Source: Geobacter sp. (GTDB taxonomy: Bacteria; Desulfobacterota; Desulfuromonadia; Geobacterales; DSM-12255). From it: a stretch of 43,163 nt of DNA. A program made the position numbers and the translations under genes. This document shows, in pieces, positions 12,785-21,757 of the stretch (position 1 is the stretch's first letter; the number at the start of each line of letters is the position of its first letter). The notes under the pieces are model-generated. The model was not told the DNA's origin. It saw only the letters and a list, made by a program, of their open reading frames with translations, and did no database searches. The stretch is taken from contig VFJK01000040.1 of the NCBI GenBank assembly GCA_009886125.1, positions 1 through 43,163 of the forward strand. Direction: 5' to 3'.

Positions 12785-14260
12785 ATGTTTGAGTCAGCTG
12801 AACTTGGACACCGAATCGACAAGGAGAGATACAGGAAAGATGTGCCGGAGTTGCGGGAGGCGCTGCTTAATGCCCAGATCGATCTTCAGGAGGCAGATTT
12901 CCCGGTGATAATCATCATTGCCGGTGTTGATGGCGCCGGCAAGGGGGAGACGGTCAATATCCTCAACGAATGGATGGACCCCCGTCATATTCAGACAAAT
13001 GCCCTTGATGCTCCTACCGAAGAGGAGTTTGAGCGCCCGAGGATGTGGCGTTTTTGGCGGACGCTGCCTCCCAAAGGGAAAATCGGCATATATTTCGGTT
13101 CCTGGTATTCAGCTCCGATAGTGGACCATGTGATCGGTAACACAAAAAACGCCGAGCTGGACCAGTCCATGGAACGAATCATTCGATTTGAAAAAATGCT
13201 GACCGATGAGGGTGCCCTGATCCTCAAGTTCTGGTTTCATCTTTCAAAAGATGAGCAGCACAAACGATTGAAGAGCCTGGAAAAAGATCCGCATACCCGT
13301 TGGCGCGTAACTTCACAGGACTGGTCGAATTTCAAGCTTTATGACAGATTCCGCAAGGTTTCCGAGCATGCCCTCCGCCAGACCAGCACCAGTGAGGCAC
13401 CCTGGACGATAGTCGAGGGAACTGATCCGCGCTATCGTTCTTTGACGGTCGGAAAAGCGGTGCTGCAGGGGTTGCGGGCCCGGCTCGATGTCCCCAGGGA
13501 ACAGAGGCAGCTCATGGCCGTCCCCCCGCAGATTCCGGCCATTGACGATCTCCTGCTTATCCGCTCACTTGATCTCACCAAAAGCATTTCCAGGGAAAAG
13601 TATGAGGAGGAGCTGACAGAGTATCAGCGAAAACTTGCCCTTCTCACGCGACACGACAATTTCCGGAAGATTTCTGTAATTGCTGTATTTGAAGGGAATG
13701 ACGCTGCCGGCAAGGGGGGAAGCATCCGCCGCATTACATCTGCGCTGGATGCTCGCCAGTACCGGGTGATGCCGGTGGCCGCTCCAACAGAAGATGAGCG
13801 GGCCCAGCCATATCTCTGGCGTTTCTGGCGGCATCTGCCCCGAAAAGCGAGGTTTGCTGTTTTCGATCGTTCCTGGTACGGGAGGGTTTTGGTCGAGCGG
13901 ATCGAGGGATACTGCGCTCCCGGGGACTGGATGCGTGCCTACAGCGAAATAAACGACTTTGAAGAACAGCTGGTCCGGAACAGGACAGTAATCGTAAAAT
14001 TCTGGCTGACCATCAGCAAGGAAGAGCAGCTGCGGCGCTTCGAGGAGCGGGAGAAGACCGGTTTCAAGCGGTTCAAGATCACTGCTGAGGACTGGCGCAA
14101 CCGGGAGAAGTGGGAGCAGTATGAGCTGGCTATCTGCGATATGATTGACCGGACCAGTACGGAGATCGCTCCCTGGACGCTGGTTGAAGCAAATGACAAG
14201 CACTATGCCCGGATAAAGGTGCTTAAGACCATATGCAAAGCGATCGAGCGGGCCCTGTAA
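12785..14260 (+). CDS. pap: Polyphosphate:AMP phosphotransferase (two fused PPK2 domains)
   Basis: Class II PPK2 of 491 aa, which uses polyphosphate to phosphorylate AMP to ADP. Two PPK2 domains lie in tandem. The first has Walker A GVDGAGKG (47-54), but where the Walker B Asp-Arg should stand it reads FGSWY, so its catalytic Asp is missing. The second has EGNDAAGKGG (303-312) and an intact FDRSWYGR (360-367), with the lid basic residues EERE...KRFKIT. The C-terminal half is therefore the likely active half, as known for fused class II enzymes. The ATG has a gaggtgat ribosome site. The stop lies 12 bp from the convergent DUF1450 gene. Pit is divergently placed upstream, linking Pi uptake and polyP use. 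Confidence 0.93.
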   Translation: MFESAELGHRIDKERYRKDVPELREALLNAQIDLQEADFPVIIIIAGVDGAGKGETVNILNEWMDPRHIQTNALDAPTEEEFERPRMWRFWRTLPPKGKIGIYFGSWYSAPIVDHVIGNTKNAELDQSMERIIRFEKMLTDEGALILKFWFHLSKDEQHKRLKSLEKDPHTRWRVTSQDWSNFKLYDRFRKVSEHALRQTSTSEAPWTIVEGTDPRYRSLTVGKAVLQGLRARLDVPREQRQLMAVPPQIPAIDDLLLIRSLDLTKSISREKYEEELTEYQRKLALLTRHDNFRKISVIAVFEGNDAAGKGGSIRRITSALDARQYRVMPVAAPTEDERAQPYLWRFWRHLPRKARFAVFDRSWYGRVLVERIEGYCAPGDWMRAYSEINDFEEQLVRNRTVIVKFWLTISKEEQLRRFEEREKTGFKRFKITAEDWRNREKWEQYELAICDMIDRTSTEIAPWTLVEANDKHYARIKVLKTICKAIERAL

Positions 14261-14272
14261 AAGATGTCTGTT

Positions 14273-14491
14273 TCAGTCATTTTTCAGGAGGGCGACTATT
14301 TTTTCATACAGATCCTCGCCGTCCTCTGCCTTGACAATCTTCTCCTGCACAAGGGCGAATGGCGATTTGCGACAGGGAGCGCAGTTTTTTATGCAATCCT
14401 TTCGCTTGATGTTCAGGTCCGGATAGTTCTCCTTCAGTTTTTTGAGGACCTTGCCGGAACCTTTGTTGTTTTCGCAAAATCGGATCTTCAT
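14273..14491 (-). CDS. Small DUF1450-type cysteine protein
   Basis: Protein of 72 aa with the pattern of the DUF1450 (YuzB-like) family: MKIRFCENNKG at the start, then CIKNCAPCRKSPFALV and a terminal LYEKIVALL helix. The four cysteines (C6, C33, C37, C40) suggest a thioredoxin-fold or metal/Fe-S-binding small protein, although the biochemical function is unknown. The start is taken as ATG 14491, which has aggggg five to six bases before it, rather than an in-frame GTG six bases upstream at 14497. It is transcribed alone and convergently with the PPK2 gene. Confidence 0.8.
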   Translation of the reverse strand: MKIRFCENNKGSGKVLKKLKENYPDLNIKRKDCIKNCAPCRKSPFALVQEKIVKAEDGEDLYEKIVALLKND

Positions 14492-14710
14492 TATCACCCC
14501 CTGGTTGTGGAGACAGCAAACTCTGTTAAAGTTAAAGTCTGATTAACAGCTTTATATGTAAGTATACATGAAGTTTGCGTTACAGTTATGCAACATCTTG
14601 CTGATAAAGGGAATTGCGTATTTTTTTCATTGCAGCAGCAAAGTGTTGTAGGCTAGATTTTTAGGAAAAACTTCTGCTATAGGTCATACCGTCATGAAGG
14701 AGGCTCCACT

Positions 14711-15235
14711 ATGAGGCTAACAGCTAAAGAGTTGCAGCAGCTCAGGGGTATCGGCGATGTGCTTGCCGTCCGCCTGCTTGAGTCAGGCCATGATTCCTTT
14801 GCCAAGATAGTCGCTCTTGGCGAAAAAGGACTAAAGGAGATAAAAGGGATCAACCCTAAGGCCGTTCCGGAGATTCTTGAACAGGCAGAGAGGCTCTCCT
14901 CCAGGGATGAAGGTGACCGTGACAGGAAAGTCGAGACCCTTAAAGAGTCGCTCCAGGGACTGCGCCAGTTCGTGCAGGAGATAACCGCGACAGCCATGGA
15001 ACGTTTCAGTGAAAAACTTTCCGGAAAGACCGGACGGAAGCTGACAGAGTCTCTTGTCCGTTTTATCGAAGCAGTTGAAGAGGTCGAGGGCAGGGCCGGC
15101 AAGAAGCTCAAGCGGACGGGAAAGGTAGTGGTGAAAGCTGAGCAGTCCATGGAGGGACTTGTCGGGGCCGGATTGAAAGATCTGCGCAAGGGGTTGAAGA
15201 AGGCCAGAAAAGCACTTCAGAGGGTTCATGCATGA
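14711..15235 (+). CDS. Helix-hairpin-helix protein with long basic helical tail
   Basis: Protein of 174 aa. Residues 3-58 form a helix-hairpin-helix pair (LRGIGDVLAVRLLESG and IKGINPKAVPEILEQA), a fold that usually grips duplex DNA through the backbone phosphates. Residues 60-174 look wholly helical and end in a Lys/Arg-rich stretch (KKLKRTGK, DLRKGLKKARKALQR). It starts the operon running to Ppx/GppA: ATG has AAGGAGG upstream and its stop overlaps the next start (ATGA). A polyanion-binding role (DNA or polyphosphate) is an inference from the charge and the neighbours. The exact family was not recognised beyond HhH. Confidence 0.82.
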   Translation: MRLTAKELQQLRGIGDVLAVRLLESGHDSFAKIVALGEKGLKEIKGINPKAVPEILEQAERLSSRDEGDRDRKVETLKESLQGLRQFVQEITATAMERFSEKLSGKTGRKLTESLVRFIEAVEEVEGRAGKKLKRTGKVVVKAEQSMEGLVGAGLKDLRKGLKKARKALQRVHA

Positions 15236-15921
15236 TTGTGAGTCAGGATCGAGGACGTTACCCCGGCAGACTGATTGCTGTTGAGGGACTGGACGGTTCG
15301 GGAAAGTCCACCCAGCTTTATCTTCTCAAACGCTGGCTGGAGATGAAAGGTTTGAAGGTGTTTTTCACCGAATGGAATTCGTCCCTGCTTATCAAGAAGG
15401 CTACGAGTAAAGGGAAGAAACGTCAACTTTTGACTCCCACCACCTTCAGCCTGATTCACTGTACTGATTTTGCCGACCGCTATGAGCGGCAGATTCTCCC
15501 ACTGCTTAAGGCTGGCTACCTGGTACTCTGCGACCGCTATATCTACACAGCATTTGCCCGTGATGCAGTCCGGGGCTGCTCTCCTGACTGGCTGCACAAC
15601 CTTTACGGCTTTGCCTGCCACCCGGATATCACGCTTTTTTTCAATACGTCCCTGCAGATCGCGCTTGGCAGAATCCTCGGAGGCAGACCACAGCTCAAGT
15701 ACCATGAAGCCGGGATGGATCTCGGCCTGTCATCCGACCCTTATGAGAGCTTTCGCATTTTTCAGGGTAAAATCTACGAAGAGTATCTTGCTATGAAGGA
15801 TCGATTCAGATTTATCGAGATCGATGGCGCTGATCCCATTGAAGCACAGCAGCAGAAGGTCCGGGAGCTCATCGCCGCTGAAATAGATCTGGCGCACTAT
15901 CGGTCACGAACAATAGTATAG
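15232..15921 (+). CDS. Thymidylate-kinase-like P-loop kinase, first copy
   Basis: Protein of 229 aa with the Tmk fold: intact P-loop GLDGSGKST (19-27), the DRYIYT motif (D101) and a lid segment near ALGRILGGR. In true dTMP kinases the P-loop is followed by an R-E-P-G-G-T loop that binds dTMP. Here that position reads TEWNSS, and the region KKATSKGKKRQLLTP is unusually basic. The housekeeping function is therefore doubtful, and a normal tmk is expected elsewhere. It overlaps the HhH gene by four bases and is followed after 10 bp by a paralogue, with CHAD and Ppx downstream. PPK2 enzymes share this P-loop fold, so a polyP-linked nucleotide kinase is possible but unproven. Confidence 0.82.
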   Translation: MIVSQDRGRYPGRLIAVEGLDGSGKSTQLYLLKRWLEMKGLKVFFTEWNSSLLIKKATSKGKKRQLLTPTTFSLIHCTDFADRYERQILPLLKAGYLVLCDRYIYTAFARDAVRGCSPDWLHNLYGFACHPDITLFFNTSLQIALGRILGGRPQLKYHEAGMDLGLSSDPYESFRIFQGKIYEEYLAMKDRFRFIEIDGADPIEAQQQKVRELIAAEIDLAHYRSRTIV

Positions 15922-15931
15922 GAAGGAATTT

Positions 15932-16612
15932 ATGCGATTTTACGGTGATGGAATACCGGGGGTTCATCCGGAGGAGTTGACCGGTCGGCTGATAGTTATG
16001 GAAGGGGCTGATGGCTCCGGACGTTCGACCCAGATGGATATTCTGCGTGATGCTCTGGAAAACAAGGGCCATGCCACGGTGAACGTGGGGTTGCGCCGAT
16101 CGACCCTGGTTTCTGATGAGCTGAAAGAGGCCAAGCAGGGAAACGTCCTTGGCGAGATAACCCGCAGCCTCTTTTATGCGACTGATTTTGCCGATCAACT
16201 GGAGAACAGAATTATTCCGGCACTGAAGGCCGGTTTTATCGTTCTGGCCGACAGATACATCTATACTCTCATGGCAAGGGATATAGCCCGTGGTGCTGAT
16301 CGGGGCTGGGTCCGCTCTCTCTATGGCATTGCTCTTGTCCCGGATCTGGTCGTTTATGTAAAGGTCAGTCCGGCTCAATTGATCGAACGGAATCTGCGCA
16401 AGAATGCAACTCTGGACTACTGGGAGTCGGGGATGGATCTCGGTCTTTCACGCGACAGCTTTGACAGCTTCATCAGCTACCAGAGGCTTATTCAGAAAGA
16501 GTTTGCACTGATGCAGGCAGAGTACGGTTTTTCTACGGTCAACGGCAATCTGACGGTGAGGTCGGTAGCCAAAGAGATCAGCCTCCGGGTTGTGGATATA
16601 CTGGGGGTATAG
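15932..16612 (+). CDS. Thymidylate-kinase-like protein, second copy with Arg in the P-loop
   Basis: Protein of 226 aa, paralogous to the upstream gene. Shared landmarks include MEGADGSGRST (23-33), TDFADQLENRIIPALKAGF, DRYIYT (D107), MDLGLS and a matching C-terminal layout. The invariant P-loop lysine is arginine here (R31), a change that usually lowers or abolishes phosphate transfer. The dTMP-binding REPGGT loop is absent, reading VGLRRST. It may be a low-activity kinase, a nucleotide sensor or the regulatory half of a heterodimer with the first copy. A gaaggaat ribosome site precedes the ATG. It is separated by two bases from the next gene. Confidence 0.82.
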   Translation: MRFYGDGIPGVHPEELTGRLIVMEGADGSGRSTQMDILRDALENKGHATVNVGLRRSTLVSDELKEAKQGNVLGEITRSLFYATDFADQLENRIIPALKAGFIVLADRYIYTLMARDIARGADRGWVRSLYGIALVPDLVVYVKVSPAQLIERNLRKNATLDYWESGMDLGLSRDSFDSFISYQRLIQKEFALMQAEYGFSTVNGNLTVRSVAKEISLRVVDILGV

Positions 16613-16614
16613 AG

Positions 16615-17007
16615 ATGGATAAGGATAAAAAGTCCCGGCATGAACTTTTGCAGCATGAACTGGTGAACGAACTCAAAGCCCTTCGCAAAACGATACGGGA
16701 AGTTGCCGAGGGATTCATTCTCTGCAAGGAGGGCGAGATCGAGACACTGCTCGATCATCTCCTGAAAATGCCGCCGGGCCGGTTGAAGGCGGTTGTCCGT
16801 CCCTGGATGCGGGAAACACATTCACTGAAACTAAAGCCTGCCAAGGGGCGGATCAAGGACCTTAAAAAAATCGACTCCCTGTTAGATGATCTTTGCAACT
16901 ACGTTCTTGAGGCTGATGAGAAGGAGCAAAAACCTAGAATCGCCAGGAAAAAAATAATCGCCAACGACAAAAAAGGCGGGACTTCACCTGCAATACCTGT
17001 CGGATGA
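16615..17007 (+). CDS. Unrecognised basic helical protein
   Basis: Not recognised. 130 aa, charged and probably helical, with leucine-spaced helices (HELLQHELVNELKALRKTI; IETLLDHLLKMPPGRLKAVVRPWMRE). The lysine-rich C-terminal end (RIARKKIIANDKKGG) looks disordered. No signal peptide or membrane segment. It starts two bases after the second kinase-like gene and its stop overlaps the CHAD gene by four bases (ATGA), so tight operon position is the main clue. Basic character fits binding to an acidic polymer or to an operon partner, which is inference. Confidence 0.72.
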   Translation: MDKDKKSRHELLQHELVNELKALRKTIREVAEGFILCKEGEIETLLDHLLKMPPGRLKAVVRPWMRETHSLKLKPAKGRIKDLKKIDSLLDDLCNYVLEADEKEQKPRIARKKIIANDKKGGTSPAIPVG

Positions 17008-17891
17008 GAAGCCTGACTGCTGATACCCATACATGGGTTGCCGCAAGGGGGTTCCTTCTGGACCGGAGCGATGACTTTTTTTTGCAGCTGACACGGGCCC
17101 GGGAGGCTCTGGCGCCAGAGGCCATCCATGATCTTCGGGTCGCATCACGCCGTCTTCGGGAAGGGATAGCCCTCTTTGGCCACTGCTTCAGGAAACGGCA
17201 GCTTGCAACGCTCCGCAAAGAGCTGAAGGGTATGACCACAATGCTCGGCGTGATCCGCAACACTGATGAAGCAATCCTGTTTTTCTCGGATCTCGTGGAA
17301 AGTTGCGATGCTGCGTCTGTCGTTGCTGCCATAAAAATAGTTGCCACACTTCATGCGAAAAGGGTAGATGAGCAACGGGAGCTGAAACGGGAGCTGAAAA
17401 GAATTGATGCCGGCTCGCTTCTGGGCAGAATCGATGATTTCTGCGCTAATCCCCGGATTTTCAACCCCGCAGCCCGCGGTCTGTTCCAGCCGATCTCCGA
17501 TTATCTCCTTGAAGCGCTTGCTGGCAGGGAAAAAGCCATTCTGGAACTCCTTCCCGATGCAGTACTGGAATTGAATATATCTGCTCAGCATCGACTTCGC
17601 ATCGCTGTAAAGCATTTCCGCTACCGCCTTGAATTTCTTGCACCTCTGGCTTCCAACGACTACAAGAAGGTTTACAGTGTGATCAAGGAGTATCAGGAGG
17701 TGCTGGGGCATATGCATGACCTGGATTTGTTCATTGCCCTCACGGGAGAGCCATCCACTGAGCAGAACTGTCCCTCGCACCTGCAAAAAATAATCTGTGA
17801 CCGCCGCCGGATGCTGTTTGCTGCTTTTCTGCAACTCCATGCTGCGAACCCGCTTGATGAATTGGGCAGTCGGGTGCGGGGTCTGCTGTGA
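17004..17891 (+). CDS. CHAD domain protein (polyphosphate-binding type)
   Basis: CHAD (conserved histidine alpha-helical domain) protein of 295 aa. The family signatures are present: IHDLRVASRRLRE (about 41-53), HRLRIAVKHFRYRLEFL (about 197-213) and LGHMHDLDLF (about 234-243), spaced as in the two four-helix halves of the domain. CHAD proteins bind inorganic polyphosphate through their His/Arg/Lys-lined groove and may attach to polyP granules. There is no CYTH domain. It overlaps both neighbours by four bases, and the following gene is a polyphosphatase homologue, a common pairing that supports the polyP role. Confidence 0.9.
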   Translation: MRSLTADTHTWVAARGFLLDRSDDFFLQLTRAREALAPEAIHDLRVASRRLREGIALFGHCFRKRQLATLRKELKGMTTMLGVIRNTDEAILFFSDLVESCDAASVVAAIKIVATLHAKRVDEQRELKRELKRIDAGSLLGRIDDFCANPRIFNPAARGLFQPISDYLLEALAGREKAILELLPDAVLELNISAQHRLRIAVKHFRYRLEFLAPLASNDYKKVYSVIKEYQEVLGHMHDLDLFIALTGEPSTEQNCPSHLQKIICDRRRMLFAAFLQLHAANPLDELGSRVRGLL

Positions 17892-19420
17892 GCAACAACC
17901 GCCTTGCAGCCATCGATATCGGCACCAACTCCATTCGCAGCATAGTCGTTGAAATCGAGAGATCCGGCAAATTCCGAGTTCTTGATGATGAAAAAGCTAC
18001 CGTTCGTCTTGGCGAAGGGCTGAATGAGACCGGATTATTGTCAGCCGAAGCTTGCCAACGTGCGATCGAGGCACTGATCCGCCAGAAAAAGATCATCGAC
18101 GGTTACGGTGTCAGGGCAGTTGAAGCGGTAGCCACCAGCGCCGTGCGCAAGGCAGCCAATGGCAAGGTATTTATCAGTGCTGTCAGGAAACTGACCGGTA
18201 TTGCCATTGCCGTCATCAGTGGCGAAGAGGAGGCAGAACTGGCAGCCCTGAGCGCCTTCAACAACTTCGACATGGAAGGCTCCCGGCACCTGCTGGTCGA
18301 TATCGGCGGCGGCAGTCTCGAATTGGTGACGACTGTCGGTCGGCATGTCGAAGAGATCTTTTCCCTGGAACTCGGGGCGCTGTATCTATCGGAGACCTTT
18401 CTCAAAGGGGATGTCCAGGCAGAGGCCTATAACAGGCTGCGCCGCCATATCCGAAAGGTTCTCAAGGAGGCCTTCCCGGAGGGGTGGCCGGCTGTCAATG
18501 CCGTCATCGGTTCCGGAGGGACCGTCACCTCCATTGCTGCAATGATCCTGGCAGGACGCAAGGAAGGGTATGGTTCGGCCCATGGCTACGAAATCCTTCG
18601 CAGCGACGTCGTGCACCTTCTGGCAATGCTGCTGCGCAAAAGTCTCAAGGAGTTACATGACATCCCCGGGCTGAATCCGGATCGTGCCGACATCATAGTC
18701 GCCGGGGTGATGGTCATTGATGAACTGCTGGAGTTCTGCCAGACCAATCTCCTCAGGGTGAATGATCGGGGGATCAGAGAAGGCCTGATACTGCGCGGGC
18801 TGAGAAAGCACGGCATACTGCCGGAGGAGCGTGCTTCCCGATCGTGGCGCGACTCGGTTCTCGAGTTTGGAGATTCATGCCATTTCGACAGAAGCCATTC
18901 TCTCCAGGTGGCCAGACTCTCTCTGGAGATATTTCATGCCCTTGCCCGGGCATACACTCTTGGCGATAGAGAACTCCGCCTTCTGGAGGCAGCGGCACTC
19001 CTTCACGATGTCGGCTATTTCATAAACTACTCCAGTCATCACAAACATTCCTACCACCTGATCCGTCACGCCGACCTCTTTGGTTTTACCCCCCGTGAAC
19101 GGGAACTGATTGCTCATATTGCCCGTTACCATCGCAAGTCACTCCCCAAAAAGAAGCATGAGCAGTTCATCCGCCTGAGTGTAGCTGACCGTCAGATCGT
19201 ATCACGACTGGGGGGCATCCTGCGCCTGGCCGACGGTCTTGACCGGACCAGAACCGGCATGATCAGCATTGCAGAGCCGATTCTGTCCCCTTCCCGCCTC
19301 GTGCTGCGCCTGAAGGGGAGTGGTGATCTTTCCGTCGAAATATTCGGCGCAACGTCCAAAAGCGATCTTTTCTGCACAGCGTTCGGCCTGAAACTGGTTC
19401 TGGAACCGGTAAACGTCTGA
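17888..19420 (+). CDS. ppx: Ppx/GppA exopolyphosphatase family protein with HD domain
   Basis: 510-aa member of the ASKHA-fold Ppx/GppA family, which removes terminal phosphate from polyP and/or hydrolyses pppGpp. N-terminal domain motifs are AAIDIGTNSIRSIV (7-20), EAVATSAVRKA (about 77-87), GEEEAELA (about 111-118) and LLVDIGGGSLELV (about 137-149). The C-terminal half carries an HD-type metal-binding domain (LLHDVGYF near 375, with further histidines in SSHHKHSYHLIRH), as in full-length Ppx. The start is GTG 17888, giving a GTGA four-base overlap with the CHAD gene. Sequence alone does not separate Ppx from GppA activity, but CHAD and PPK2 nearby favour polyP. Confidence 0.92.
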   Translation: MSNNRLAAIDIGTNSIRSIVVEIERSGKFRVLDDEKATVRLGEGLNETGLLSAEACQRAIEALIRQKKIIDGYGVRAVEAVATSAVRKAANGKVFISAVRKLTGIAIAVISGEEEAELAALSAFNNFDMEGSRHLLVDIGGGSLELVTTVGRHVEEIFSLELGALYLSETFLKGDVQAEAYNRLRRHIRKVLKEAFPEGWPAVNAVIGSGGTVTSIAAMILAGRKEGYGSAHGYEILRSDVVHLLAMLLRKSLKELHDIPGLNPDRADIIVAGVMVIDELLEFCQTNLLRVNDRGIREGLILRGLRKHGILPEERASRSWRDSVLEFGDSCHFDRSHSLQVARLSLEIFHALARAYTLGDRELRLLEAAALLHDVGYFINYSSHHKHSYHLIRHADLFGFTPRERELIAHIARYHRKSLPKKKHEQFIRLSVADRQIVSRLGGILRLADGLDRTRTGMISIAEPILSPSRLVLRLKGSGDLSVEIFGATSKSDLFCTAFGLKLVLEPVNV

Positions 19421-19568: not shown

Positions 19569-20786
19569 ATGAATCATCTTCATCATGTCATTCCGACGTT
19601 GAGCGACATAATGCGCAGTACTCCGGAGATCGGTGGCGCCACTCTGGTGAAAGATGTCATGGAGCTTTTTCAGAAAGAGCAGTCCCTTCTTGCTCTGCCA
19701 GTCATTGAGGAGGGACGTTTCATCGGGGTGATCAACCGCAGGGTCCTTTTCTTTGAACACCTGGGGCGCCCTTTTGCGGTCGACCTCTACGGGAGAAAAG
19801 CGATACGGCTGCTATTGGATGAAAAGCAGCTGTCTCTCGAACCCGAGCTGGATATCAATTCCGCTCTGGTCCGGTTGCTTGAGGTCGATTCCGGTCTTAC
19901 TTTCGATTCATTTCCTGTTGTAAGTGAAACCAGGTTCCTGGGCATCGTCACAGTCTCAGATCTGATGATGAAGATATCGGAAAATCAGGCGAATCTGCTC
20001 AACACGCTGCAACTGCTCAGTGCGCGAATTACCGAAGAGGTTGACAAGGCAAGCAAGATACAGCGCGATCTTCTCCCGCCTTCTGATTTTTTTGCCGATA
20101 ACATTCGCGTAAGTGCCGAGGTTATCACCTCATCGGAAATCGGCGGCGATTTCTACGATTACTTCCCTCTTGGCGAAGGTCGTCTTGGTCTTGTGGTTGC
20201 CGATGTCAGCGGCCATGGCGTTCAGGCCGGCATGGTGACCACCGCTGCCAAGGCCAGCCTGCACTCGCTTATCGGGAAAGGGGTGACAACCCCGGCGGAA
20301 CTGCTTTACGGCATGAACAATGCCATCCTTGCCACTGCTCGCCAGAGTCTGCTGATGACCTGCCTGATCGTGATCATCGATCCAATCGACAATTCATTGA
20401 CTCTGGCAAATGCCGGACACAATTTCCCCTACATTATCCGTCGAAAGAGTGTTGACCCTGAAATGATCCAGGATGTGGCTGGATATCCGCTCGGTTTCGA
20501 GGAGAACTGTAGCTATCCGGAATTCAGCTGCACATTCAATCCCGGAGATACGCTTTTCCTTTATACCGATGGAATTGTGGAGTGCATCGACCCGAATGGG
20601 GAAGAGTTCGGCTATGAACGACTGGAGAGGATACTGTCGAAAGCGGGAGAGTACGCTCCTCTGGAGCTTCGCAATCTCCTGAAGCGATCAGCTGAGCTTT
20701 TTACTGGAGAGTCCGCTTTCGAAGACGATGTAACCCTGCTGATTGCCGCGTCAGTGGCAAAGAATCTAAAAAAGGAGTTGTCCTGA
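19569..20786 (+). CDS. CBS-domain SpoIIE/RsbU-type protein serine phosphatase
   Basis: 405 aa. Two CBS-like motifs (about 5-60 and 80-138, the second ending in FLGIVTVSDLMMKIS) form a probable nucleotide-sensing module. A linker helix (ITEEVDKASKIQRDLLP) leads into a PP2C/SpoIIE phosphatase domain. The metal-binding acidic residues are all present: GGDFYDY (192-198), VADVSGHG (210-217), LYTDGI and EDDVTLL near the end. Such phosphatases dephosphorylate a STAS protein in partner-switching systems, and that STAS gene lies two genes downstream. Possible adenine-nucleotide control through CBS is inferred. It shares one base with the next start (TGATG). Confidence 0.92.
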   Translation: MNHLHHVIPTLSDIMRSTPEIGGATLVKDVMELFQKEQSLLALPVIEEGRFIGVINRRVLFFEHLGRPFAVDLYGRKAIRLLLDEKQLSLEPELDINSALVRLLEVDSGLTFDSFPVVSETRFLGIVTVSDLMMKISENQANLLNTLQLLSARITEEVDKASKIQRDLLPPSDFFADNIRVSAEVITSSEIGGDFYDYFPLGEGRLGLVVADVSGHGVQAGMVTTAAKASLHSLIGKGVTTPAELLYGMNNAILATARQSLLMTCLIVIIDPIDNSLTLANAGHNFPYIIRRKSVDPEMIQDVAGYPLGFEENCSYPEFSCTFNPGDTLFLYTDGIVECIDPNGEEFGYERLERILSKAGEYAPLELRNLLKRSAELFTGESAFEDDVTLLIAASVAKNLKKELS

Positions 20787-21757
20787 TGTCTGTTGCAGAT
20801 CACCATGTCATTTTGGCTTTGTTTGAAAACGGAATTGATAAGGATGCTTTCAGCCCTTTATTAGAAGGTCTTCCCGGGCTTTTAACTATCGGAAATACTC
20901 CGGGGAAAGAGCTGTTTGCTGAAAAAATGGCATCAATGCGACTGAGCCCGTCATTGGTTATTCTCTCCAGCAGGCTTTATCCGAGGGCACGTCCGGAACT
21001 GGTCGCTGATCTTAAAGAGATCTTTCCAGGAGCGGAGATACTGTTGATTACTCTTGCAGCAGATCCGCTGCCTTCATTGGAGCAACTGGCTGTCGACCGT
21101 ATAAAACATCTCCTTGTCACCCCTGAAGAGGACGAACAGGCGGGGATATCCTCATTGCAGAATGCTATATGCCGGCTTCTGGTGAGAAGCCCCTGGAAGC
21201 TGCAGGACTATGTCAAGCCAGGAAGTAGGGTCCATGAATTCCCTCTGGTCTCTTCGAGCCAGAAAGAGGCTCTTATAGCAACTCTTGAAGGTGCTGTCAG
21301 CGGTGATTCTCCGGAGATGGAACTGCTCCGGCAGAGGGCTGCGCTGCTTGCAGACGAAATGGTGGAGAATGCTCTTTATGGAGCTCCACAGGGTAAAGAT
21401 GGCAGTAAGCTTTTCTCCAAGGGGGAGGATAGAGTCATTGCTGCAGAGGAGGAGATTTCATTCCGCTTTGCTTTTGACGGCGAAACCCTTGCCATGGAGA
21501 TTGTCGATGGCTGGGGAACCCTGGTTCCTGAGATGGTGGTCGACTTCCTGGCCCGTAACCAGTCAGGAATGGAGGAGGAGCTCGTTGAAGCCGGCGGTCG
21601 CGGACTTTTCATCATCTGGAGATTTATGGACCACCTTCATGTGAACATCAGGCCCGGCATGCAGACCGTTCTCGGTGGTCATCTGAAAGCAATTTCGACC
21701 CTTGACTGTGAAAGTCCCAGAGGATTTTCCATTTCGACCAATTATCTGAGTGCATAA
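20786..21757 (+). CDS. RsbW-like anti-sigma/serine kinase ATPase fused to an N-terminal receiver-like domain
   Basis: 323 aa. The C-terminal third is a GHKL ATPase of the RsbW/SpoIIAB type: N-box LADEMVENAL with E191, E194 and N195, G1 box DGWG (241-244) and G2 box GGRGLFII (270-277). The N-terminal 130 residues look like a degenerate receiver/FleQ-like alpha-beta domain (SLVILSSRLYPRARPELVADLKEIFP) without the full acidic pocket. In partner switching such a protein binds or phosphorylates the STAS antagonist or inhibits a target. It is translationally coupled to the phosphatase and followed after 9 bp by the STAS gene. Confidence 0.85.
   Translation: MSVADHHVILALFENGIDKDAFSPLLEGLPGLLTIGNTPGKELFAEKMASMRLSPSLVILSSRLYPRARPELVADLKEIFPGAEILLITLAADPLPSLEQLAVDRIKHLLVTPEEDEQAGISSLQNAICRLLVRSPWKLQDYVKPGSRVHEFPLVSSSQKEALIATLEGAVSGDSPEMELLRQRAALLADEMVENALYGAPQGKDGSKLFSKGEDRVIAAEEEISFRFAFDGETLAMEIVDGWGTLVPEMVVDFLARNQSGMEEELVEAGGRGLFIIWRFMDHLHVNIRPGMQTVLGGHLKAISTLDCESPRGFSISTNYLSA

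Follow-up and report, generated by a model that had tools for sequence, protein, structure and literature searches.

A tandem pair of thymidylate kinase-like proteins in a Geobacter polyphosphate operon: a candidate PPK3-type polyphosphate kinase

Described polyphosphate kinases and the Geobacter locus

In prokaryotes, the ability to synthesise polyphosphate (polyP) is as a rule judged by the presence of PPK1 and PPK2 only. We describe here an operon of six genes in a 43,163-nucleotide stretch of Geobacter sp. (contig VFJK01000040.1 of assembly GCA_009886125.1, analysed as a whole and called the window below). Two of the six encode divergent relatives of thymidylate (dTMP) kinase, or Tmk: TmkA (positions 15232-15921, forward strand) and TmkB (15932-16612, forward strand). 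Their sequences and surroundings suggest that the pair is a PPK3-type polyP kinase in place of PPK1, in which TmkA would be catalytic and TmkB a degenerate partner, and that the operon is a self-contained polyP module. We give this reading a probability of about 0.68.

The closest described system is the crenarchaeal family 3 polyphosphate kinase SaciPPK3, reportedly characterised by Hofmann et al. (bioRxiv 2024; JBC 2026), which we take to be a member of the Tmk family. Since a crenarchaeal polyP kinase family is already published, the bacterial pair is not categorically new. No description of the bacterial TmkA-TmkB pair was found in titles and the beginnings of abstracts among the papers listed, in a search that had most subscription journals and all of bioRxiv outside its coverage. 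Crenarchaea accumulate polyP without a PPK1 or PPK2 homolog (PMC7831078, PMC6864096), a distinct PPK-type enzyme is described in Sulfolobus (PMC13318637), and polyP synthesis has been characterised in S. acidocaldarius (PMC11677633). PPK2 and Tmk are kin in fold, and the polyphosphate:AMP phosphotransferase PAP combines one inactive N-terminal and one active C-terminal PPK2 domain (PMC8776046). In the DALI table for FtPPK2, the first structures that are not PPK2 are 4NZY and 2PLR, both of the S. tokodaii protein ST1543, while the text of the same paper gives S. aureus 4EAQ as the second (PMC4748334).

Kinship and residues of TmkA and TmkB

ST1543, named 'probable thymidylate kinase' and deposited as a dTMP kinase, a label that we dispute here, is the nearest solved structure to both the TmkA profile and the TmkB model. 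Among PDB sequences the TmkA profile has its best match in 2PLR (262.6 bits; next 67.2), and the same holds for the window's TmkA itself (E 2.4e-59, 203.7 bits; next best entry 46.6), which is far closer to ST1543 than to ordinary Tmk. The AlphaFold model of TmkB is a Tmk domain (pLDDT 90.9) whose nearest PDB folds are ST1543 entries (Foldseek E 8e-19). The ST1543 structures 2PLR, 4NZY, 4RZX and 5H70 belong to the TmkA group, and their label as dTMP kinase may be a misnomer.

This kinship extends to the neighbouring genes. In a sample of 200 archaeal genomes, from the phylum of a Nitrososphaerales metagenome-assembled genome, TmkA-level matches (at least 247 bits) occur in 14, each with a tandem partner; PPK1 was matched in 0/14 of these and in 4/200 overall. 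Eight of these 14, whose loci we call Sulfolobales-like, have the row SixA-like, PPX, TmkA, TmkB, CHAD-like (SixA was Pfam-tested in L203 only). The row PPX-TmkA-TmkB is found in 8/8, with PPX split over two open reading frames in L207, and next to it comes a gene for some 200 residues that matches the CHAD family PF05235 at E<=0.01 in 7/8 and above the Pfam cut-off in 2. TmkA of L208 is identical to 2PLR over 213/213 residues. In biomining archaea, the genes around CHAD include SixA, PPX, dTMP kinase and CHAD according to the legend of a Figure 2 (PMC10892726). The window thus resembles these loci in placing the same pair in one operon with an exopolyphosphatase and CHAD (PPX 8/8 and CHAD-like 7/8 at the archaeal loci, where the pair stands between the two). 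It differs in its bacterial setting, in its additional helix-hairpin-helix (HhH) and small basic proteins, in the P-loop of TmkB, and in that, within a single bacterial order, it alternates cleanly with PPK1.

Both window proteins match the Tmk family PF02223 above its cut-off of 27 bits (TmkA 71.6, TmkB 64.1) and miss that of the dTMP kinase equivalog TIGR00041 (83.25 bits; TmkA 79.3, TmkB 70.4). At E<=0.001 neither matches PPK2 (PF03976): TmkA matches PF02223 alone, and TmkB matches PF02223 and also AAA_33, below the AAA_33 cut-off. Neither matches PPK1 (PF02503). With bacterial Tmk the pair shares the fold, the position of the P-loop and the DRY motif, but REPGGT is gone: TmkA reads EWNSS at this place, and the TmkB of the window reads LRRST. 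We counted residues over 116 TmkA rows and 116 TmkB rows. The P-loop of TmkA is intact (GLDGSGKST), and its Walker A lysine, K25, is present in 116/116 rows, whereas that of TmkB (GADGSGRST) has an arginine, R31, at this place, as do 97% of the TmkB rows. In a separate tally the arginine is found in 98/102 TmkB rows; the four lysines all belong to Sulfolobales-like loci, so that TmkB has lysine in 4/8 of these, and all eight of their TmkB rows read DGY for DRY. Residues W48, N49, S50 and S51 are kept in 116/116 TmkA rows, at columns where the genome's own ordinary tmk has EPGG (of REPGG). The DRY motif and R83, D101, R102, R110, D111, R114 and R147 are likewise kept in 116/116, and R152 and K156, in the lid, in 98%. 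The conservation of R83, R102, R110, R114, R147, R152 and K156 points to a basic site in TmkA; TmkB lacks the two lid residues. R76 and Q107 of the own tmk, which presumably contact thymine, are replaced by F80/F86 and R110/R116 in the window's TmkA/TmkB.

In a tree of 78 rows, drawn from every fourth of the 80 wider loci described below, the window and 11 archaeal loci, all 32 TmkB rows lie on one side of a branch supported at 100/100. The 14 archaeal tmk rows are likewise together at 100/100; all tmk rows in this tree come from the archaeal search, since the motif filter removed every bacterial one. We propose that TmkB is a degenerate or regulatory partner subunit, and these residues make TmkA the catalytic candidate, putatively a PPK3-type polyP kinase. 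The pair would share with PPK2 and PAP a P-loop polyP chemistry and a paired active/inactive arrangement; it differs from them in having no PF03976 match and in being two genes, not a fusion. PPK1, whose fold is unrelated to that of Tmk, is comparable in the role of polyP synthase proposed here, but it alternates with the pair in this order.

Conservation of the operon and its relation to PPK1

The six genes lie on the forward strand (14711-19420) and encode, in this order, the HhH protein, TmkA, TmkB, the small basic protein, a CHAD protein and a Ppx/GppA exopolyphosphatase, with successive spacings of -4, +10, +2, -4 and -4 bp. An earlier, sequence-only reading of this DNA had described a tight operon with four-base overlaps or gaps of 10 bp or less, as the spacings bear out. 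It was also right that REPGGT is absent from both kinase-like proteins; its statement that both keep the P-loop holds for TmkA, where it is intact, not for TmkB with its arginine.

Our order-level sample comprised 58 genomes of Geobacterales, including the Geobacter genome itself. TmkA is present in 13/58 (best match 76-100% identical), each time with an adjoining second Tmk-like match. All six genes are found at 13/13 loci fetched from the 12 other pair-bearing genomes, which argues that the arrangement is more than chance. The strict order is kept at 10/13: L036 has an inserted PP2C/HATPase block, and the small basic gene is relocated in L039 and L040, where about 0.9 kb of extra sequence separates it from TmkA. 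In L036 and L037 the stretch or contig ends within Ppx. One genome, G035, has two copies of the operon (L046, L047), the second (L047) with a nearby PPK2 gene and a Ppx piece of about 104 residues. Across the 13 loci, identity to the window copy is 73-88% for TmkA and 79-90% for TmkB, and 36-63% for CHAD, 44-77% for HhH and 35-61% for the small basic protein. This far better conservation marks TmkA and TmkB as the functional core.

The distribution of PPK1 in the order follows that of the pair. PPK1 (PF02503) was matched in 0/13 pair-bearing and 39/45 pair-less genomes (Fisher p 9e-9, without correction for kinship), and 11/13 of the pair-bearing genomes are at least 95% complete. The Geobacter genome, 99.74% complete, gave no PF02503 match at E<=0.001. 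Each of the 51 genomes with PPK2 carries either PPK1 or the pair and never both (some few of these PPK2 matches are contig-end fragments). Where PPK1 and the pair are both missing, in six genomes, PPK2 is missing too, and one genome (G006) has PPK1 without PPK2. Both states occur inside one family (f3) and one genus (g1), the PPK1-bearing member of the genus (G001) being only 78% complete. VTC was matched in 0/13 pair-bearing genomes, and we rejected it as a polyP source on this ground. Because the Geobacter genome has no PPK1 or VTC match and its only PPK2 match is a PAP, its polyP consumers and binders would otherwise be without a known source. The pair can coexist with PPK1 elsewhere, but takes its place inside this order.

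We then considered the wider phylum. In a sample of 395 of its genomes, TmkA (E<=1e-40) is found in 15, each with a second match, and 11 of these are outside the order, in three other families. Of the 12 stretches from these 11 genomes, 10 have CHAD close to the pair, 5 have Ppx (L086 a short piece only) and one (L083) has a PPK2-like gene; the two stretches without CHAD come from a single pair whose genes ended up on different contigs. A wider search, in which a diverse TmkA alignment was run against named genomes and the best 80 loci were kept so that the spread is a lower bound, reached Verrucomicrobiota, Acidobacteriota, Nitrospirota, Chloroflexota, Thaumarchaeota, Methanoliparum and others. 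A TmkB-type match lies beside TmkA in 80/80 of these loci, with a Ppx gene between the two in L166. Within 4 kb of the pair (548 kb over the 80 loci) there are 40 Ppx, 29 CHAD and 6 PPK2 matches, against 0, 0 and 1 in an internal control at 5-10 kb from the pair (472 kb, same loci); these matches are open reading frames, so that a gene broken into two of them is counted as two, and the tally skips the zone of 4-5 kb. At least one Ppx, CHAD or PPK2 match lies within 4 kb in 50/80 loci, and in 35/54 of those with full flanks.

The Pfam families of neighbouring genes within 3.5 kb of the pair at the 80 loci agree with these assignments. Ppx-GppA is the nearest called gene upstream in 17/75; downstream, CHAD is nearest in 16/78 and Ppx in 6/78, and the second gene is Ppx in 7/67 and CHAD in 4/67, of 71 second downstream genes from which four very long ones (L105, L107, L113, L119) were omitted for size. 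Genes were called as the longest open reading frame, with priority to those matched by our own profiles and with genes missed by both uncounted, so these tallies confirm identity rather than frequency. The same tallies contain SixA-type histidine phosphatases beside the pair (4, 8 and 5 members in three position sets), with SixA-type genes also at archaeal loci among L202-L212, and PhoU upstream in 4/75; their recurrence suggests phosphate-linked regulation. In Verrucomicrobiota a ROK glucokinase-like gene lies downstream of TmkB in L093, L094, L098, L103, L104, L106, L110, L111, L120 and L153, sometimes followed by a Ppx-like gene. We rejected the idea of a polyP glucokinase here, because the scores of 10/10 ROK proteins, 29-51 bits, are far below the PPGK cut-off of 250; they fit ROK glucokinase better, though they are below that cut-off as well.

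The remaining genes of the operon differ in their spread. The HhH protein (14711-15235, forward strand; PF14520, HhH_5, 34.4 bits) has an N-terminal helix-hairpin-helix, a basic C-terminal part and a pI of 10.2. It is found in 1/80 wider loci (L092, probably a contig of the order relative G010) and looks like an accessory of this order. The small basic protein (16615-17007, forward strand) is helical, carries a conserved KPxKGRxKDL motif, and has homologs in relatives, in 5/12 loci of the other families and in 5/80 wider loci. It has no Pfam or NCBIfam match at E<=0.001, and its predicted structure (pLDDT 82.3) no significant fold match (best Foldseek E 1.7); we propose a scaffold or polyP-binding accessory. 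The CHAD protein (17004-17891, forward strand; PF05235, 138.3 bits) is the only PF05235 match in the genome, and a polyP-binding or granule-targeting role is proposed. The Ppx/GppA exopolyphosphatase (17888-19420, forward strand; PF02541 at 212 bits, PF21447, PF01966), with a GTG start and a C-terminal HD domain, is one of two PF02541 matches in the genome.

Upstream of the operon lies a gene missing from the gene list of the sequence-only reading, a PAP of class II with tandem PPK2 domains (12785-14260, forward strand; TIGR03708 equivalog, 764.9 bits against a cut-off of 547.65; PF03976 twice). In three relatives (L041, L042, L043) the PAP gene is directly downstream of Ppx. The 450 bp gap between PAP and HhH holds a small antisense DUF1450 gene identified by Pfam (14273-14497, reverse strand), and L035, L036, L037 and L038 likewise have a DUF1450 homolog upstream of HhH and in opposite orientation to it. 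Downstream, at 19569-21757, Pfam identifies a CBS-SpoIIE (PP2C) phosphatase and HATPase-like gene; the same block recurs close to the operon in L035 and interrupts it in L036, and is a possible regulatory switch. Terminator-like sites exceed the shuffle level (15 found, 7.4 expected) and none lies in the gaps between the six genes, while promoter-like sites are at shuffle level (4 found, 4.6 expected). There were matches to 27 plasmid records, all below 60% identity, for which reason plasmid carriage of the operon was rejected; 14/20 among the matches listed are annotated tmk: dTMP kinase.

Competing explanations and a possible mechanism

The sequence-only reading had proposed a polyP-linked nucleotide kinase or sensor. 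The link to polyP is strongly supported by a neighbourhood conserved, well beyond close relatives, across bacterial phyla and archaea; the nucleotide kinase or sensor is less well supported, and we prefer polyP synthesis because PPK1 and VTC are absent from the 13 pair-bearing genomes of the order and PAP is present. Several observations weigh against this preference. Linkage is incomplete: 30/80 loci, partly on truncated contigs, and also 19/54 with full flanks, have no Ppx, CHAD or PPK2 within 4 kb. Exclusivity with PPK1 across the phylum was not found and was rejected, since PPK1 is in 4/15 pair-bearing and 37/380 pair-less genomes of the phylum sample, if anything an enrichment (p 0.06), and in 18/72 pair-bearing genomes searched (24 of the earlier samples and those of 48 of the 80 loci). 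In 4/13 pair-bearing genomes of the order (G009, G017, G024, G035) PPK2 is in single-domain-size frames and may itself make polyP. The best tree places the Sulfolobales-like TmkA rows beside ordinary tmk with weak support, and although it has no single TmkA clade, such a clade is not rejected (p-AU 0.42). Finally, the equation of SaciPPK3 with TmkA (or TmkB) of such an operon is a presumption.

Some of these points would suit a pair that consumes polyP in the PPK2-like direction, phosphorylating nucleoside mono- or diphosphates with polyP from an undescribed enzyme or a reversed PPK2. The kinship in fold between PPK2 and Tmk (PMC8776046), the co-occurrence with PPK1, the PAP or single PPK2 genes near some loci and the single-domain-size PPK2s all speak for such a kinase. 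We find it unlikely, because the Geobacter genome would offer it no known polyP source, and because the pair replaces PPK1 in the order, not PPK2, a match to which is kept by 13/13 pair-bearing genomes. A catalytically weak sensor or regulator, which would act on Ppx or CHAD in response to bound nucleotide and polyP with no synthesis of polyP, fits the missing P-loop lysine of TmkB and the HhH and helical basic partners in the operon, but it is harder to reconcile with TmkA, whose P-loop lysine, DRY motif and basic lid residues are kept and whose conservation among relatives, while CHAD drops to 36% identity, is the pattern of an active enzyme; we regard it as improbable. The least probable account, and a very improbable one, is that the two are divergent ordinary kinases of dTMP or another nucleoside monophosphate that adjoin polyP genes by chance, as the PF02223 matches and the dTMP kinase label of the archaeal relative might suggest. 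The TIGR00041 cut-off is missed, REPGGT and the two presumed thymine-contact residues are replaced in both proteins, and polyP genes lie beside the pair far more often than in the internal control. Moreover, the operon does not hold the sole tmk of the genome: an ordinary one (171 bits) lies on contig C21, so that the pair is extra and duplication of the ordinary tmk was rejected. A further, more distant Tmk-like gene is present in 12/13 pair-bearing genomes, this one included (it was Pfam-tested here alone); the exception, G003, is 81% complete. The Geobacter genome has a fourth Tmk-like protein (C80:12638-13216, reverse strand; L004, L048), whose P-loop is broken (GINGSGPQVK) and in which no DRY motif can be recognised; it is one more degenerate protein of the Tmk fold.

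If the pair is a PPK3-type polyP kinase, we infer its catalysis, reaction direction, heterodimer and accessory roles as follows. TmkA would bind a polyP chain in its basic site and extend it with the gamma phosphate of a nucleoside triphosphate. Its partner would be TmkB, which lacks the P-loop lysine and perhaps holds the polymer. Tmk is a homodimer, and TmkA and TmkB would probably form a heterodimer through the same face. CHAD domains bind polyP (PMC6537752), and the CHAD protein would bind or anchor it here, with Ppx trimming it and the PAP next door spending it on AMP. The HhH and small basic proteins would be accessory polyanion-binding parts; such a role for HhH, already suggested by the sequence-only reading, is a guess. 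By analogy with the H1-like AlgP, for which such a tether is itself speculated (PMC9239181), this basic protein could link granules to DNA.

A bolder form of this proposal, to which we give slightly less than even odds, is that TmkA and a pseudokinase-like TmkB form an obligate heterodimer on which many bacteria and archaea without PPK1 rely as their main polyP synthase, encoded by one operon inherited or transferred across both domains and hidden under the name of dTMP kinases. As polyP synthesis is called from PPK1 and PPK2, genomes like this one are rated as having no means of producing polyP, despite their PAP, CHAD and Ppx. Two small proteins would suffice for a direct test of the hypothesis. 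If it is true, many 'dTMP kinase' genes and the solved structure 2PLR would need renaming, a natural pair of active and degenerate kinases would be open to mechanistic study, and the capacity to make polyP would extend to many uncultured groups.

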